From NCBI RefSeq assembly GCF_030285925.1, contig NZ_CP127251.1, positions 1,798,001-1,862,000 on the forward strand: DNA of 64,000 nucleotides, read 5' to 3'. The translations under genes were made by a program, and so were the position numbers. Each line of letters begins with the position of its first letter. The first letter of the stretch is position 1. Below the pieces are notes generated by a model that saw only the letters and a list, made by a program, of their open reading frames with translations, was not told where the DNA came from and searched no databases. Positions 46,211 to 57,385 of this stretch are shown in pieces. Origin of the DNA: Devosia sp. YIM 151766. Lineage in GTDB: Bacteria > Pseudomonadota > Alphaproteobacteria > Rhizobiales > Devosiaceae.

Positions 46211-46225
46211 TTAACGAATAGTTAC
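46211..46225 (-). promoter_or_regulatory. CtrA-like box upstream of fliL
   Basis: TTAA-CGAATAG-TTAC, one base from TTAA-N7-TTAA, in the fliL/flgF divergent region and nearer to fliL. In Caulobacter the fliLM promoter is a CtrA target; here the claim rests on the motif and position. Confidence 0.6.
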
Positions 46226-46238
46226 GATTGCCGCTAAG

Positions 46239-46270
46239 CCGGCAGTTTTTGCCGGGCAGCTTTTGCCGGC
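46239..46270 (+). promoter_or_regulatory. Candidate FlbD-type enhancer palindromes
   Basis: CCGGCA-GTTTT-TGCCGG (46239-46255) is a perfect palindrome with 6-bp arms. It overlaps a second imperfect one, GGCA-GCTTT-TGCC with GG flanks, ending at 46270. They lie 75-105 bp upstream of the sigma-54-like promoter of flgF, the usual distance for a sigma-54 activator. A similar element precedes flgI. Confidence 0.5.
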
Positions 46271-46343: not shown

Positions 46344-46359
46344 TGGCATGGTTTCTGCA
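46344..46359 (+). promoter_or_regulatory. Sigma-54-like promoter of flgF operon
   Basis: TGGCATG-GTTT-CTGCA matches the -24/-12 consensus TGGCACG-N4-TTGCA at 14 of the 12 fixed-plus-spacer positions' equivalent, that is with two mismatches and with GG and GC intact at correct spacing. It is 67 bp before the flgF start. Confidence 0.6.
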
Positions 46360-49964: not shown

Positions 49965-51464
49965 ATGTCCTTCACCAAACTCGACGATCTTGGCCGCCGG
50001 CTGGAAGCTCTCGGGCACGCTCTGTCCATTCTCGGTGCCGACGAGGCGACGCATATGGCCATTGGCGGCGGCGAGAAACGGGCCGAGGCCATGGCGCACC
50101 TGGCCGGCATGCACCACGCCCAGGCGACCGCCCCGGAAATCGGCGACTGGATCGAGGCCGCCAGGTCCGAGGACCTGACCGAGGACCAGAAACTGGCGCT
50201 CGGCGAATTCGAGCGCGAATACCGCAATGCCACCTGTCTGCCCACCGAATTCGTGCAGCGCCGCACCACGGCCACCATGCGCTCCGAACAGCTTTGGCGG
50301 GAATTGCGCGCCAAGGGCGATTGGGACAGCTTCCTGCCGGCGCTGGAGGGCGTGGTGTCCCTGGTACGCGAAGAGGCGGCGCTGCGCTCGGCGGCAACGG
50401 GCCTCGGGCCCTATGACGCCTTGATGGACCAATATGATCCCGGCAACCGGGTCGCCGATATCGACGCGGTATTTGCCGATCTCAAGAGCTTCCTCAAGGA
50501 TTTTCTGCCCACGGCGCTGTCGGTGCAGGAGGAGCGGCTGGCCCGGCGTCCGCGCCAGGCGCTCAATGCCCCCTACCCCATCGAGAAACAGCGCGAACTG
50601 GGCCTGGCCGCCATGCGCGCCGTCGGCTTCGATTTTACCCATGGCTCGCTGGCAGTGTCGCATCACCCCTTCTGCGGCGGTGTGCCGACCGATGTGCGCA
50701 TGACGACGCGCTACCGCACCGACGAGTTCCTCACCTCATTGATGGGCGTGCTGCACGAGACCGGTCACGCCCTCTATGAGCAGGGACTGCCCAAGAACTG
50801 GTCGCACTGGCCCCTGGGCAAGGCGCGCGGCATGGGCATCCATGAAAGCCAGAGCCTGTTCGTGGAAATGCAGATCGCCCGCAGCGCCGAATTCTGGGAC
50901 TACATGCTGCCATTGGTCCACCAATATCTGGGCGACGATGCCATTCCCGGCTGGGGCATCGCCGACATCCTCAATGAAGTGAATTTCATCGAGCGCGGCT
51001 ATATCCGCGTCGATGCCGACGAAGTGACCTATCCCCTCCACGTCATCCTGCGCTACGAACTGGAGCAGGACCTGGTGACCGGCAAGCTGGAAGCCAGCCA
51101 GATACCCGAGGCCTGGGACGCCAGGATGACCGAATATCTGGGCATCTCGACCATCAACGACCCCAAGGACGGCCCGATGCAGGACGTGCACTGGCCCGCC
51201 GGCGCTTTCGGCTATTTTCCGAGCTACACCTTGGGGGCCATGATCGCGGCCCAGCTTGGCGCGGCCATGGAAAAAGATATTCCCGACATGGGCGACCAGA
51301 TGCGCCGGGGCGAGTTCGGCGCCATCAATCAATGGCGCGCCGACCGCATCTGGACGCAAGCCTCGCGCTATTCGACGCCCGATCTCATCACCCGCGCCAC
51401 CGGCGAGCCGCTCAATGCCGATCACTTCAAGGCGCATCTCAGGAAGCGCTATGGCCGCGCCTGA
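49965..51464 (+). CDS. M32-family metallocarboxypeptidase
   Basis: 499 residues. The zinc motif HETGHALYEQG (HExxH) lies near residue 264, with the third ligand Glu in GIHESQSLFVEMQIARS, as in thermostable carboxypeptidase Taq. Other family blocks are HPFCGGVPTDVRMTTRY and GAFGYFPSYTLGAMIAAQ. It hydrolyses C-terminal residues from peptides in the cytoplasm. It is not motility-related and sits between two flagellar blocks. It ends at a shared terminator with dksA. Confidence 0.93.
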   Translation: MSFTKLDDLGRRLEALGHALSILGADEATHMAIGGGEKRAEAMAHLAGMHHAQATAPEIGDWIEAARSEDLTEDQKLALGEFEREYRNATCLPTEFVQRRTTATMRSEQLWRELRAKGDWDSFLPALEGVVSLVREEAALRSAATGLGPYDALMDQYDPGNRVADIDAVFADLKSFLKDFLPTALSVQEERLARRPRQALNAPYPIEKQRELGLAAMRAVGFDFTHGSLAVSHHPFCGGVPTDVRMTTRYRTDEFLTSLMGVLHETGHALYEQGLPKNWSHWPLGKARGMGIHESQSLFVEMQIARSAEFWDYMLPLVHQYLGDDAIPGWGIADILNEVNFIERGYIRVDADEVTYPLHVILRYELEQDLVTGKLEASQIPEAWDARMTEYLGISTINDPKDGPMQDVHWPAGAFGYFPSYTLGAMIAAQLGAAMEKDIPDMGDQMRRGEFGAINQWRADRIWTQASRYSTPDLITRATGEPLNADHFKAHLRKRYGRA

Positions 51465-51519: not shown

Positions 51520-51936
51520 CTATTCGTCGCGATAGACCTTTTCGCGGCGCTCGTGCAATTCCTGGGCTTCCAGGCTCAGCGTCGCGGTGGGACGCGCATC
51601 GAGCCGGGCGATGCCGATCGGGTCGCCGGTTTCCTCGCAATAGCCATAAGTGCCGTCTTCGAGACGCTTGAGCGCCGAATCGATCTTGGAAATCAGCTTG
51701 CGCTGCCGGTCCCTCGTCCTCAATTCCAGGGAGCGGTCACTTTCCGAACTGGCCCTGTCCGCCATATCCGGATGGTTTTGGCTCTCTTCCTGAAGATTTT
51801 CCAGGGTCAGGCGGCTTTCCCGCAAGATGTCGTCCTTCCAGCCCAATAGCTTGTTCCGGAAGTATTCCCGCTGGCGCGGGTTCATGAATGGCTCGTCCTC
51901 ACTGGGCCGATAGTCCGTAACGTCAACCGAAGACAT
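51520..51936 (-). CDS. dksA: RNA polymerase-binding transcription factor DksA
   Basis: 138 residues. A coiled-coil with FRNKLLGWKDDILRESRLTLENL, the coil-tip region DMADRASSESDRSLELRTRDRQ, and the globular end GTYGYCEETGDPIGIARLDARPTATLSLEAQ. Three of the four zinc cysteines known in E. coli are replaced (CxxC reads CEET; the second pair reads S and A), a pattern seen in alphaproteobacterial DksA. Start ATG 51936 (MSSVDVTDY); longer frames are not conserved. Confidence 0.92.
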   Translation of the reverse strand: MSSVDVTDYRPSEDEPFMNPRQREYFRNKLLGWKDDILRESRLTLENLQEESQNHPDMADRASSESDRSLELRTRDRQRKLISKIDSALKRLEDGTYGYCEETGDPIGIARLDARPTATLSLEAQELHERREKVYRDE

Positions 51937-52081
51937 GTGCAGACTCAACTCCGATATGCCCTTTGGCGGCCTATATAGGCGGGTCGTCTTCGCCGGGCAA
52001 GCGCACAATTTACGACTTGTTAACACGGCGGAGGCCGGCGCCCCCGATCGGATAGCGCAGCAATGACGACAAGCTGATGAC

Positions 52082-52501
52082 CTAAAACTGCGGATAGCGA
52101 CCCAGCTTGGCCAGTTCCACCAGCACCCGCAATTCGATGTCGTCAATTATCGCATCGAGTTGCGGCTCGGCCCGTTCGCGCAATCCAGCGAGCTGGCCGC
52201 TCAGCGCGTCGAGCTGTTGCGGCGCCAGCCGGCCGACCAGCAGATCGGCCTTCATGTCCTCCAGCAGATCGAGCAATGTCGTTCCGCGCTTGATGGCCCG
52301 CCGCCGGCTTTCGCTGAAACCGCCGACCGCCTGCAACGCCAGAATGGCGTCCAGCGCAGCAGTAGGAGCCACGGGAGTAGTATTGGCGATGCGCGAGGCG
52401 CCATGCTCCCCCGCCGGCACGAAAGCCGGTCCGCCGCCCGAGCGGCCGGCTGCGGGCCGGCCGGCAGCTTTATTGGGTCTATTGGTGGCATCGATGCGCA
52501 A
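52082..52501 (-). CDS. fliX: Flagellar assembly regulator FliX
   Basis: 139 residues from TTG 52501 (read MRIDATNRPNK). An Ala/Pro-rich N-terminus precedes the conserved core LDAILALQAVGGFSESRRRAIKRGTTLLDLLEDMKADLLVGRL and the end IELRVLVELAKLGRYPQF, typical of FliX. In Caulobacter FliX links early flagellar assembly to the activator FlbD and sigma-54. It is divergent from flgI, with a perfect CtrA-type box 51 bp upstream. Confidence 0.85.
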   Translation of the reverse strand: MRIDATNRPNKAAGRPAAGRSGGGPAFVPAGEHGASRIANTTPVAPTAALDAILALQAVGGFSESRRRAIKRGTTLLDLLEDMKADLLVGRLAPQQLDALSGQLAGLRERAEPQLDAIIDDIELRVLVELAKLGRYPQF

Positions 52502-52551
52502 AGCGGGACTCACTCGCCGGAACCTATATCGGCAAAATTTGCCCACGCGCC

Positions 52552-52566
52552 TTAACAAGGCGTTAA
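52552..52566 (-). promoter_or_regulatory. CtrA box upstream of fliX
   Basis: TTAA-CAAGGCG-TTAA, a perfect full CtrA consensus, 51 bp before the fliX start and on the fliX side of the divergent region. Confidence 0.7.
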
Positions 52567-52571
52567 CGCGC

Positions 52572-52590
52572 CCGGCAAGAATTGCTCACC
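52572..52590 (+). promoter_or_regulatory. Candidate FlbD-type enhancer upstream of flgI
   Basis: CCGGCA-AGAAT-TGC shares the CCGGCA-N5-TGC pattern with the palindromes upstream of flgF; the right arm is imperfect. It lies about 75-90 bp before the sigma-54-like promoter of flgI. Confidence 0.4.
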
Positions 52591-52663
52591 GGGAGCATTC
52601 AGCACCCATGGCTTAATATAAAATGTCTTGAAAAACACCATCTTACGGCCAAGAAACCGCACT

Positions 52664-52679
52664 TGGCACGATTTTGGCA
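52664..52679 (+). promoter_or_regulatory. Sigma-54-like promoter of flgI operon
   Basis: TGGCACG-ATTT-TGGCA differs from TGGCACG-N4-TTGCA at one base and keeps the essential GG and GC. Expected transcription start is about 45 bp before the flgI ATG. Confidence 0.7.
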
Positions 52680-52735
52680 TTGCTTAGGGCGAAGGCCGCG
52701 GCACGAGGGTGATGCGGCATCAGCCGGGGAAGAAG

Positions 52736-53860
52736 ATGCCAAACCGCCTGTTCCGCACCATTGTCGCCGCCGCGCTCAGCGCTGCTTTGGTCCTGACGCC
52801 GTTCTCCGGCGCCCAGGCCGCGCCGGCGCGCATCAAGGACATCGTCGACATGGAAGGCATCCGCGAGAACCAGCTCGTCGGATATGGCCTGGTGGTCGGC
52901 CTGGCCGGCACCGGCGACAGCCTCAACAATTCGCCCTTCACCAAGCAATCCCTGCAATCCATGCTGGAACGGCTCGGCGTCAACACCCAGGGCGAAAATG
53001 TCCGCACGGCAAATGTTGCCGCCGTGATGGTGACGGCCAATCTGCCGCCATTCGCCACGCAGGGCTCGCGCATGGACGTGGCGGTCTCCGCGCTCGGCGA
53101 TGCCGGCAGCCTGCAAGGCGGCACCCTCTTGGTGACGCCCTTGCTCGGCGCCGATGGCGAGGTCTATGCCATCGCCCAGGGCCCGGTCTCGATCAACGGC
53201 TTCAAGGCGCAGGGCGACGCGGCAAGTGTAATCTCGGGCGTGCCGACCACGGGACGCATTTCCTCCGGCGCGCTGATCGAGCGCGAGATCGATTTTCACC
53301 TGGGCTCGCAACATTCGCTGCGCCTGGCCCTGCGCAATCCCGACCTGACGACTGCAAGGCGCATCGCGCTGGCCGTCAACGACTTTATCGGCGCGCCCAC
53401 CGCGGTGCCGGAAGACCCGGCCACGGTGCGCCTCACCCTGCCCCGCGGCTTCAACGGCAATATCGTCGATCTGCTGACCGATATCGAGCAATTGATCGTC
53501 CAGACCGACCAGACGGCCAAGATCGTCATCGACGAGAATTCCGGCATCATCGTCATGGGCAAGGATGTGCGGGTCTCCGCCGTGGCGGTGGCGCAATCGA
53601 ACCTGACCGTCACCATCGCCGAAAACCCTGAAGTCGTTCAGCCCGAGCCGCTGAGCTTTGGCCAGACCGCCATCGAGCCGAATACCAGTCTCAATGTCCA
53701 CCAGTCCGATACCGCGCTGCAGGTCGTGCCGGAATCGGTGACGCTCCAGCAATTGGTGGATGGCCTCAACGCGCTGGGCATCTCGCCGCGCGACCTGATC
53801 GCCATCCTGCAGGCCATCAAGGCCACCGGGGCGCTGCAAGCCGAAATCGAGGTGCTGTGA
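52736..53860 (+). CDS. flgI: Flagellar P-ring protein FlgI
   Basis: 374 residues. Signal peptide through AQAAPA, then RIKDIVDMEGIRENQLVGYGLVVGLAGTGDSLNNSPFT, RTANVAAVMVTANLPPFA and the C-terminal QLVDGLNALGISPRDLIAILQAIKATGALQAEIEVL, all standard. I chose ATG 52736 (MPNRLFRTIV), preceded by GGGGAAG, over one nine codons upstream. It overlaps the flgJ-type gene by one base. Confidence 0.96.
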   Translation: MPNRLFRTIVAAALSAALVLTPFSGAQAAPARIKDIVDMEGIRENQLVGYGLVVGLAGTGDSLNNSPFTKQSLQSMLERLGVNTQGENVRTANVAAVMVTANLPPFATQGSRMDVAVSALGDAGSLQGGTLLVTPLLGADGEVYAIAQGPVSINGFKAQGDAASVISGVPTTGRISSGALIEREIDFHLGSQHSLRLALRNPDLTTARRIALAVNDFIGAPTAVPEDPATVRLTLPRGFNGNIVDLLTDIEQLIVQTDQTAKIVIDENSGIIVMGKDVRVSAVAVAQSNLTVTIAENPEVVQPEPLSFGQTAIEPNTSLNVHQSDTALQVVPESVTLQQLVDGLNALGISPRDLIAILQAIKATGALQAEIEVL

Positions 53861-57276: not shown

Positions 57277-57291
57277 TTAACCAGCCGTTAA
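57277..57291 (+). promoter_or_regulatory. CtrA box upstream of flagellin 2
   Basis: TTAA-CCAGCCG-TTAA, a perfect consensus, 95 bp before the flagellin 2 start; a second pair, TTAA-N6-TTAA, lies at 57305-57318. Confidence 0.65.
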
Positions 57292-57385
57292 GGTTAGCCT
57301 TCCATTAAAATTCATTAACCGAATGTTGATTCCTCTGTCGTGACGGCAGGATCGGATCGACGTCATGGATTTTGAGGGAAGCACA

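Follow-up and report, generated by a model that had tools for sequence, protein, structure and literature searches.

Helical phasing between candidate FlbD enhancers and σ54 promoters, and a predicted two-way switch at fliX/flgI in Devosia

The flagellar genes fliX (minus strand) and flgI (plus strand) of Devosia sp. YIM 151766 are divergent, and the 234-bp spacer between them very probably serves, judging from its arrangement of sites, as a Caulobacter-type FlbD switch acting in both directions. Early flagellar genes of Caulobacter are driven by CtrA, and FlbD, gated by FliX, acts there as a repressor of fliF and an activator of class III genes; IHF is also required for the transcription of class III and IV genes (PMC3096577, PMC3930126). 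We lean towards a broader proposition as well. Selection may hold the FlbD enhancer on one helix face relative to the σ54 promoter across Alphaproteobacteria, with insertions and deletions retained in whole turns of a repeat of about 11.05 bp, near E. coli in vivo looping values and not the 10.5 bp of free DNA, and a single FlbD assembly at fliX/flgI may close the CtrA-driven gene of FlbD's own partner and open a late promoter. The site types and the parts of this system are already known; the interesting part is the spacing rules and the evolution of the loop in whole turns.

Predicted sites in the fliX/flgI spacer and at flgF

The window analysed is a 64,000-nucleotide stretch of the genome, which is a single contig of 3.29 Mb. 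Read from fliX to flgI, the spacer contains P1, a CtrA box, P2, a weak IHF-like site and a -24/-12 promoter. Coordinates below are those of the window, except for flbD.

51520-52014, minus strand: dksA (TIGR02420, 150 bits against 115.5), directly downstream of fliX
52082-52501, minus strand: fliX, 139 aa, TTG start at 52501; best family match FliX
52529-52545: P1, palindrome TCGGCAAAATTTGCCCA, candidate FlbD-type site between the CtrA box and fliX
52552-52566: CtrA box TTAA-N7-TTAA, TTAACAAGGCGTTAA, 8/8; presumed activator site of fliX
52572-52588: P2, palindrome CCGGCAAGAATTGCTCA, presumed FlbD enhancer for flgI; contains the element noticed originally
52633-52645, plus strand: IHF-like site AAACACCATCTTA, weak (7/9), at a position where many relatives have better ones
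52664-52679, plus strand: σ54 (-24/-12) promoter of flgI, TGGCACGATTTTGGCA, one mismatch to TGGCAC-N5-TTGCW
52736-53860, plus strand: flgI, P-ring protein, ATG at 52736 (NF003676, 5.1e-130, 433.4 bits, cut-off 300)
46211-46225: CtrA-like box in the fliL-flgF spacer, 7/8
46239-46269: two abutting palindromes 5' of flgF, CCGGCAGTTTTTGCCGG and CGGGCAGCTTTTGCCGG
46344-46359, plus strand: -24/-12 promoter of flgF, TGGCATGGTTTCTGCA, two mismatches
Genome 2522229-2523596 (L062:1135-2502): flbD, just upstream of flhA

The original prediction placed a perfect CtrA box, a CCGGCA-N5-TGC element and a near-perfect σ54 promoter in this spacer. The box lies exactly where it was said to be, and the promoter indeed carries a single mismatch. 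The element is present (CCGGCAAGAATTGC, 52572-52585) but is only part of P2, the full FlbD-type element being a palindrome of 17 bp (CCGGCA-N5-TGCCGG) that at P2 has a degenerate right half; we defined this palindrome from the genomes analysed here, not from the Caulobacter ftr consensus. The distance from element to promoter had been likened to that in the fliL/flgF region, and the resemblance is real: start to start it is 92 bp at flgI and 91 bp at flgF (105 bp from the outer flgF site). Recurrence of a three-part layout at two spacers was borne out for element plus promoter, which reappears at flgF and again, shortly beyond the window, at flgE (hook), but only partly for the CtrA box, which at flgF matches 7/8. 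Each spacer holds more than one palindrome: flgF has two abutting ones, and P1 had been overlooked at fliX/flgI, a region that this second palindrome makes two-sided.

FliX is probably encoded in this genome. The length of the fliX product, 139 aa, is the commonest among the homologues listed (n=120). Its score against the FliX profile NF050808 (E 5e-26, 91.6 bits) was obtained on a longer GTG form of the gene, extending to 52513, and falls below the curated cut-off of 175. PF10768 is precomputed on the database entry of the product (P0001), some close homologues are named FliX, and those with organism names are mostly Devosia. FlbD scores 821 bits against NF050807 (curated cut-off 750) and has the GAFTGA motif; its gene follows fliF within one 20-kb stretch. 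RpoN is encoded as well (PF04552, 223.5 bits). Since Sigma54_activat has seven matches in the genome, five strong and two weak, FlbD is the likely but not the sole candidate for the activator. A map of FlbD binding exists for Caulobacter (Fumeaux et al., cited in PMC12421884); for FlbD in Devosia, a search of the open literature by title found no on-topic paper.

A DksA motif was found in 29/30 Devosia fliX loci, 46/80 named loci and 7/29 class-level loci. With dksA directly downstream of fliX in this genome and its motif so frequent in Devosia fliX loci, the switch may also reach dksA. Elsewhere in the flagellar cluster, a 499-aa protein (49965-51464, plus strand) has no NCBIfam match and carries the motif HETGHALYEQG, which makes it a candidate carboxypeptidase Taq (M32). 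Three successive CtrA-like boxes, one 8/8 and two 7/8, stand at 57277-57329, 5' of the second large flagellin-like ORF (57365).

Two spacing rules and the conservation of the layout

Taken singly, the elements are weak evidence. In the window, the σ54 pattern with up to two mismatches occurs 20 times against 32.2 expected, CCGGCA-N5-TGC with up to one mismatch 56 times against 45.1, and the CtrA box with up to one mismatch 9 times against 2.0. The idea that the bare CCGGCA-N5-TGC string would be specific to flagellar genes genome-wide failed, the string being too common (143 exact sites, against 48 for the reversed pattern), and we discarded it as a marker of FlbD. Two other patterns were rejected: the palindrome with up to one mismatch (81 sites against 50 reversed) and the pattern TGGCNC-N5-TTGC (85 against 25 in the control), which misses flgI, flgF and flgE alike. 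Separately, the 17-mer CCGGCACGTAATGCCAG was found, counting either strand, in at least seven places in the genome as a dispersed repeat; the positions listed are 1007112, 1064447, 1082070, 1674309, 2292515, 2301954 and 2325880.

Genome-wide specificity was found instead in the composite of palindrome and σ54 promoter. The late rule, GGCA-N5-TGC-N{64,94}-TGGCAY-N7-GCW, was written after the flgI, flgF and flgE sites were known. In the whole genome it gives four matches at three places, before flgF, flgI and flgE, and its reversed control gives none; the product of the motif frequencies in the window, which itself includes the true sites, predicts about 1.4 matches. Across 75 genomes of the genus the rule yields 288 matches against 35 reversed. 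The combination of element and promoter is not chance, because it picks out three flagellar places genome-wide with a control of zero and holds such an excess within the genus.

The early rule, TTAA-N7-TTWA-N{3,18}-GGYA-N5-TGCC, joins a CtrA box to a palindrome and was written after fliX and fliF, at a point when flgB was not known. It matches three times in this genome, before fliX, fliF and flgB (gaps of 8, 10 and 9 bp, respectively; control 0). The late rule has no match at fliF or flgB, and fliX/flgI is the only place in the genome where both rules match. In 75 genus genomes the early rule gives 227 matches against 4 in the control, with exactly three matches in 53 genomes; in 150 genomes of the order it gives 175 against 10, with at least one match in 86 genomes. 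Sixteen gap lengths are allowed by the pattern, and in 87 of the 144 extra-genus matches listed (144 of 169) the gap is 9 or 10 bp. Nine of ten downstream proteins scanned are flagellar and the remaining one (L339, gap 3) has no family; the ten comprise nine loci picked by eye from the 27 with a motif (of 29) together with our own flgB. By downstream protein, the gaps are 9-10 bp for FlhA, FlgB and FliF, 5 for FlgI and 15 for FlgF. At the fliF promoter (L147:1285-1375), a palindrome lies 40 bp 5' of a CtrA-like box, with a GGTA-variant palindrome on the other side; this variant recurs among the early-rule matches listed for many genus genomes.

The four genus genomes listed as having no FliX match give a mixed result as an absence test of the switch. 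In G053 (98% complete at 2.0 Mb) the late rule finds nothing and the early rule one match, and the three incomplete genomes (G042, G048 and G049) have one, two and four late-rule matches, respectively.

The predicted layout of CtrA box, FlbD element and σ54 promoter is kept in Devosia and is present in many other sampled regions. All 66 Devosia regions have a CtrA box scoring 8/8 and a σ54 match with GG and GC at -24/-12. In 62 of them P1 and P2 are 43 bp apart, the spacing of P1, box and P2 in these regions having been imposed by the search; in the other four (L036, L077, L105, L107) P1 scores 3-5 of 12 at that place and appears shifted by a few bases. When the 66 regions are aligned on the elements, the columns kept at 90% or above fall in P1, the box and P2, the sole exception being one column in the short spacer before P2; within P1, core columns are conserved and flanks are not. 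In relatives, the -12 box of flgI is mostly TCGC or TGGC, not TTGC, a steady departure from the σ54 consensus.

Palindrome and promoter were called in 13/20 order-level, 40/69 class-level and 65/80 named loci, the last being 80 of 529, none of them titled Caulobacter. In 77 regions unlike the Devosia set, P1 is rare (6/77 have one at 41-44 bp upstream of P2), and a CtrA-like box (at least 7/8) precedes the palindrome by 17-20 bp in 28/77. IHF-like sites of at least 8/9 were found in 30/65 Devosia and 38/77 other regions; most of them precede the promoter by 26-31 or 39-42 bp. They occur in 37/73 loops against 5.0 in shuffles, and in 29/60 Devosia loops against 3.55.

Helical phasing of candidate enhancer and promoter

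In 65 Devosia genomes, the distance from P2 to the promoter is 79 bp (3 genomes), 90-92 (8), 100-102 (46) or 112-114 (8): four classes, assigned by rounding to the fitted phase, with no half-turn value among the 65. On the Devosia flgI tree the class changed at least 10 times, a rough figure because the tree is weak, with 31 of 62 inner branches open and the bootstrap not settled. For wider sampling, 235 loci from overlapping sets were reduced to 183 calls (20 had no flgI motif, one had no σ54 call and 31 had no palindrome of the required quality), and, because the named set overlaps the Devosia set, these were clustered by sequence into 78 clusters. Over these clusters the best period is 11.05 bp with an R of 0.60 (bootstrap 10.9-11.3). 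No set out of 20000, each jittered by at most 6 bp, reached this R, and none of the 78 clusters lies more than 4 bp off phase.

The signal is equally present away from the Devosia set. The 77 de-duplicated regions, which were chosen by sequence dissimilarity to that set and may include Devosia-titled records (L181, L203), give an R of 0.60 (0/5000), with about ten classes 11.05 bp apart and no region more than 4 bp off phase. When only the best palindromes are used, R is 0.69 (n=43, 0/5000), and when the two commonest classes are left out it rises to 0.70 (n=32, 0/5000). Periodicity is absent from the phase controls, both for distances from the site or the promoter to the flgI motif and for re-paired sites. 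Palindrome-like matches inside flgI give an R of 0.72 at a period of 9.0, and 268 of 5000 sets reach that value, but the ten matches are too small a number for a judgement.

The whole-turn classes suggest selection on the helical phasing of a σ54 activator. The fitted 11.05 bp is near the helical repeat reported in vivo: values fitted from lac looping in E. coli are 10.95-11.60 bp, against about 10.5 bp for free DNA (PMC1762422). In the genome of this strain, the distance of 92 bp at flgI is 2.7 bp from the mean phase, that of the inner flgF site (91 bp) 1.7 bp and that of flgE (101 bp) 0.7 bp; the outer flgF palindrome (105 bp) is 4.7 bp away and thus out of phase. A dependence on the face of the helix, with activator site and σ54 promoter in phase, is described for NtrC (PMC7408454). 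In that source the dependence is reported for a single system of another organism and not for glnALG; the variation here is natural and spans many genomes. Among the open papers listed on σ54 phasing and spacing, none is by its title a comparative study of natural spacing.

The proposed switch and its alternatives

What the genomes provide directly are the sites, their conservation, the specificity of the composites, FlbD and RpoN together with a probable FliX, and the phasing in relatives; from these we infer protein binding, IHF binding, the direction of regulation and the transcription starts. In the switch that we propose, CtrA bound at 52552-52566 would drive fliX early, and FliX would let FlbD act once the early basal body has been built. 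FlbD on P2 (52572) would then loop by way of an IHF bend to the RpoN-polymerase at 52664 and turn flgI on. FlbD on P1 (52529), beside the CtrA box and over a presumed -10 region, would turn fliX off, a repression modelled on that by FlbD at fliF in Caulobacter. Several observations speak against such a switch: the IHF-like site of this genome is only 7/9 and its P2 distance is 2.7 bp off phase, P1 is rare outside Devosia-like regions, FliX is below the NCBIfam cut-offs, and 31 of the 235 loci have flgI and σ54 calls and no palindrome of the required quality.

P1 might instead be a second enhancer, in which case FlbD oligomers on P1 and P2 would cooperate to activate flgI and P1 would lie near the CtrA box only incidentally. 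The constant P1-P2 spacing in 62/66 Devosia regions would fit, as would its value of 43 bp, near a whole number of turns (about four). A similar spacing of CtrA box and palindrome is nonetheless found at fliF and flgB, two places without a late-rule match, and, across the order, ahead of the genes of FlgB, FlhA and FliF; moreover, in regions unlike the Devosia set P1 is mostly absent, yet the phasing of P2 persists. We consider this second-enhancer role unlikely. It is very improbable that a σ54-family activator other than FlbD binds the palindromes: seven Sigma54_activat matches, strong and weak, are available in the genome and binding by FlbD is a prediction, but both composite rules match only flagellar promoters there, and FlbD is the flagellar member of the family, encoded near fliF.

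The 11-bp classes could also reflect shared ancestry or a bias in site calling in place of selection for helical phase. The regions are all homologous, we set the calling rules ourselves, the Devosia tree is weak, and the classes were set by rounding to the fitted phase. Against this stand the strengthening of the signal once the two commonest classes are dropped, its absence from distances to the flgI coding motif and from re-paired sites, the 10 or more class changes, and the raw values themselves, which in 65 genomes fall only at 79, 90-92, 100-102 and 112-114; we therefore regard an origin in ancestry or bias as quite improbable. As for a chance assembly of common GC-rich words, CCGGCA-N5-TGC alone is common, but the elements and their spacing are conserved in Devosia regions and the composites are specific, so that chance has a practically negligible probability and is already contradicted by the conservation.

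The two-way FlbD switch has recognizable counterparts. Its σ54 promoter, palindromic site, FlbD and probable FliX resemble the FlbD/ftr class III promoters of Caulobacter crescentus, as does, in many relatives, an IHF-like site in the loop; unlike ftr2 and ftr3, which are downstream elements according to a paper title in the reference list of PMC3096577, the site here is upstream and phase-related. The pairing of a CtrA box with a neighbouring FlbD-type site at an early promoter recalls fliF/ftr4 of Caulobacter, and the fliF of this genome has the arrangement too. Unlike in fliF/ftr4, the arrangement occurs here at fliX as well, which encodes the partner of FlbD and stands beside a late promoter, and repression here is predicted. 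In Rhodobacter sphaeroides, divergent flagellar operons likewise share a CtrA control region, but flbD is reported absent in the Rhodobacteraceae shown there and RpoN to have no part in fla2 (PMC6180460), whereas one side of the Devosia spacer is of the σ54/FlbD kind.

The proposed switch would extend the FlbD/FliX/CtrA/σ54 circuit to Devosia, where two simple spacing rules pick only flagellar operons in the genome of this strain. The whole-turn spacing would amount to a natural experiment on the contact between a σ54 activator and polymerase over short, probably IHF-bent loops, and may allow the effective helical repeat in vivo to be estimated with no more than sequence data.
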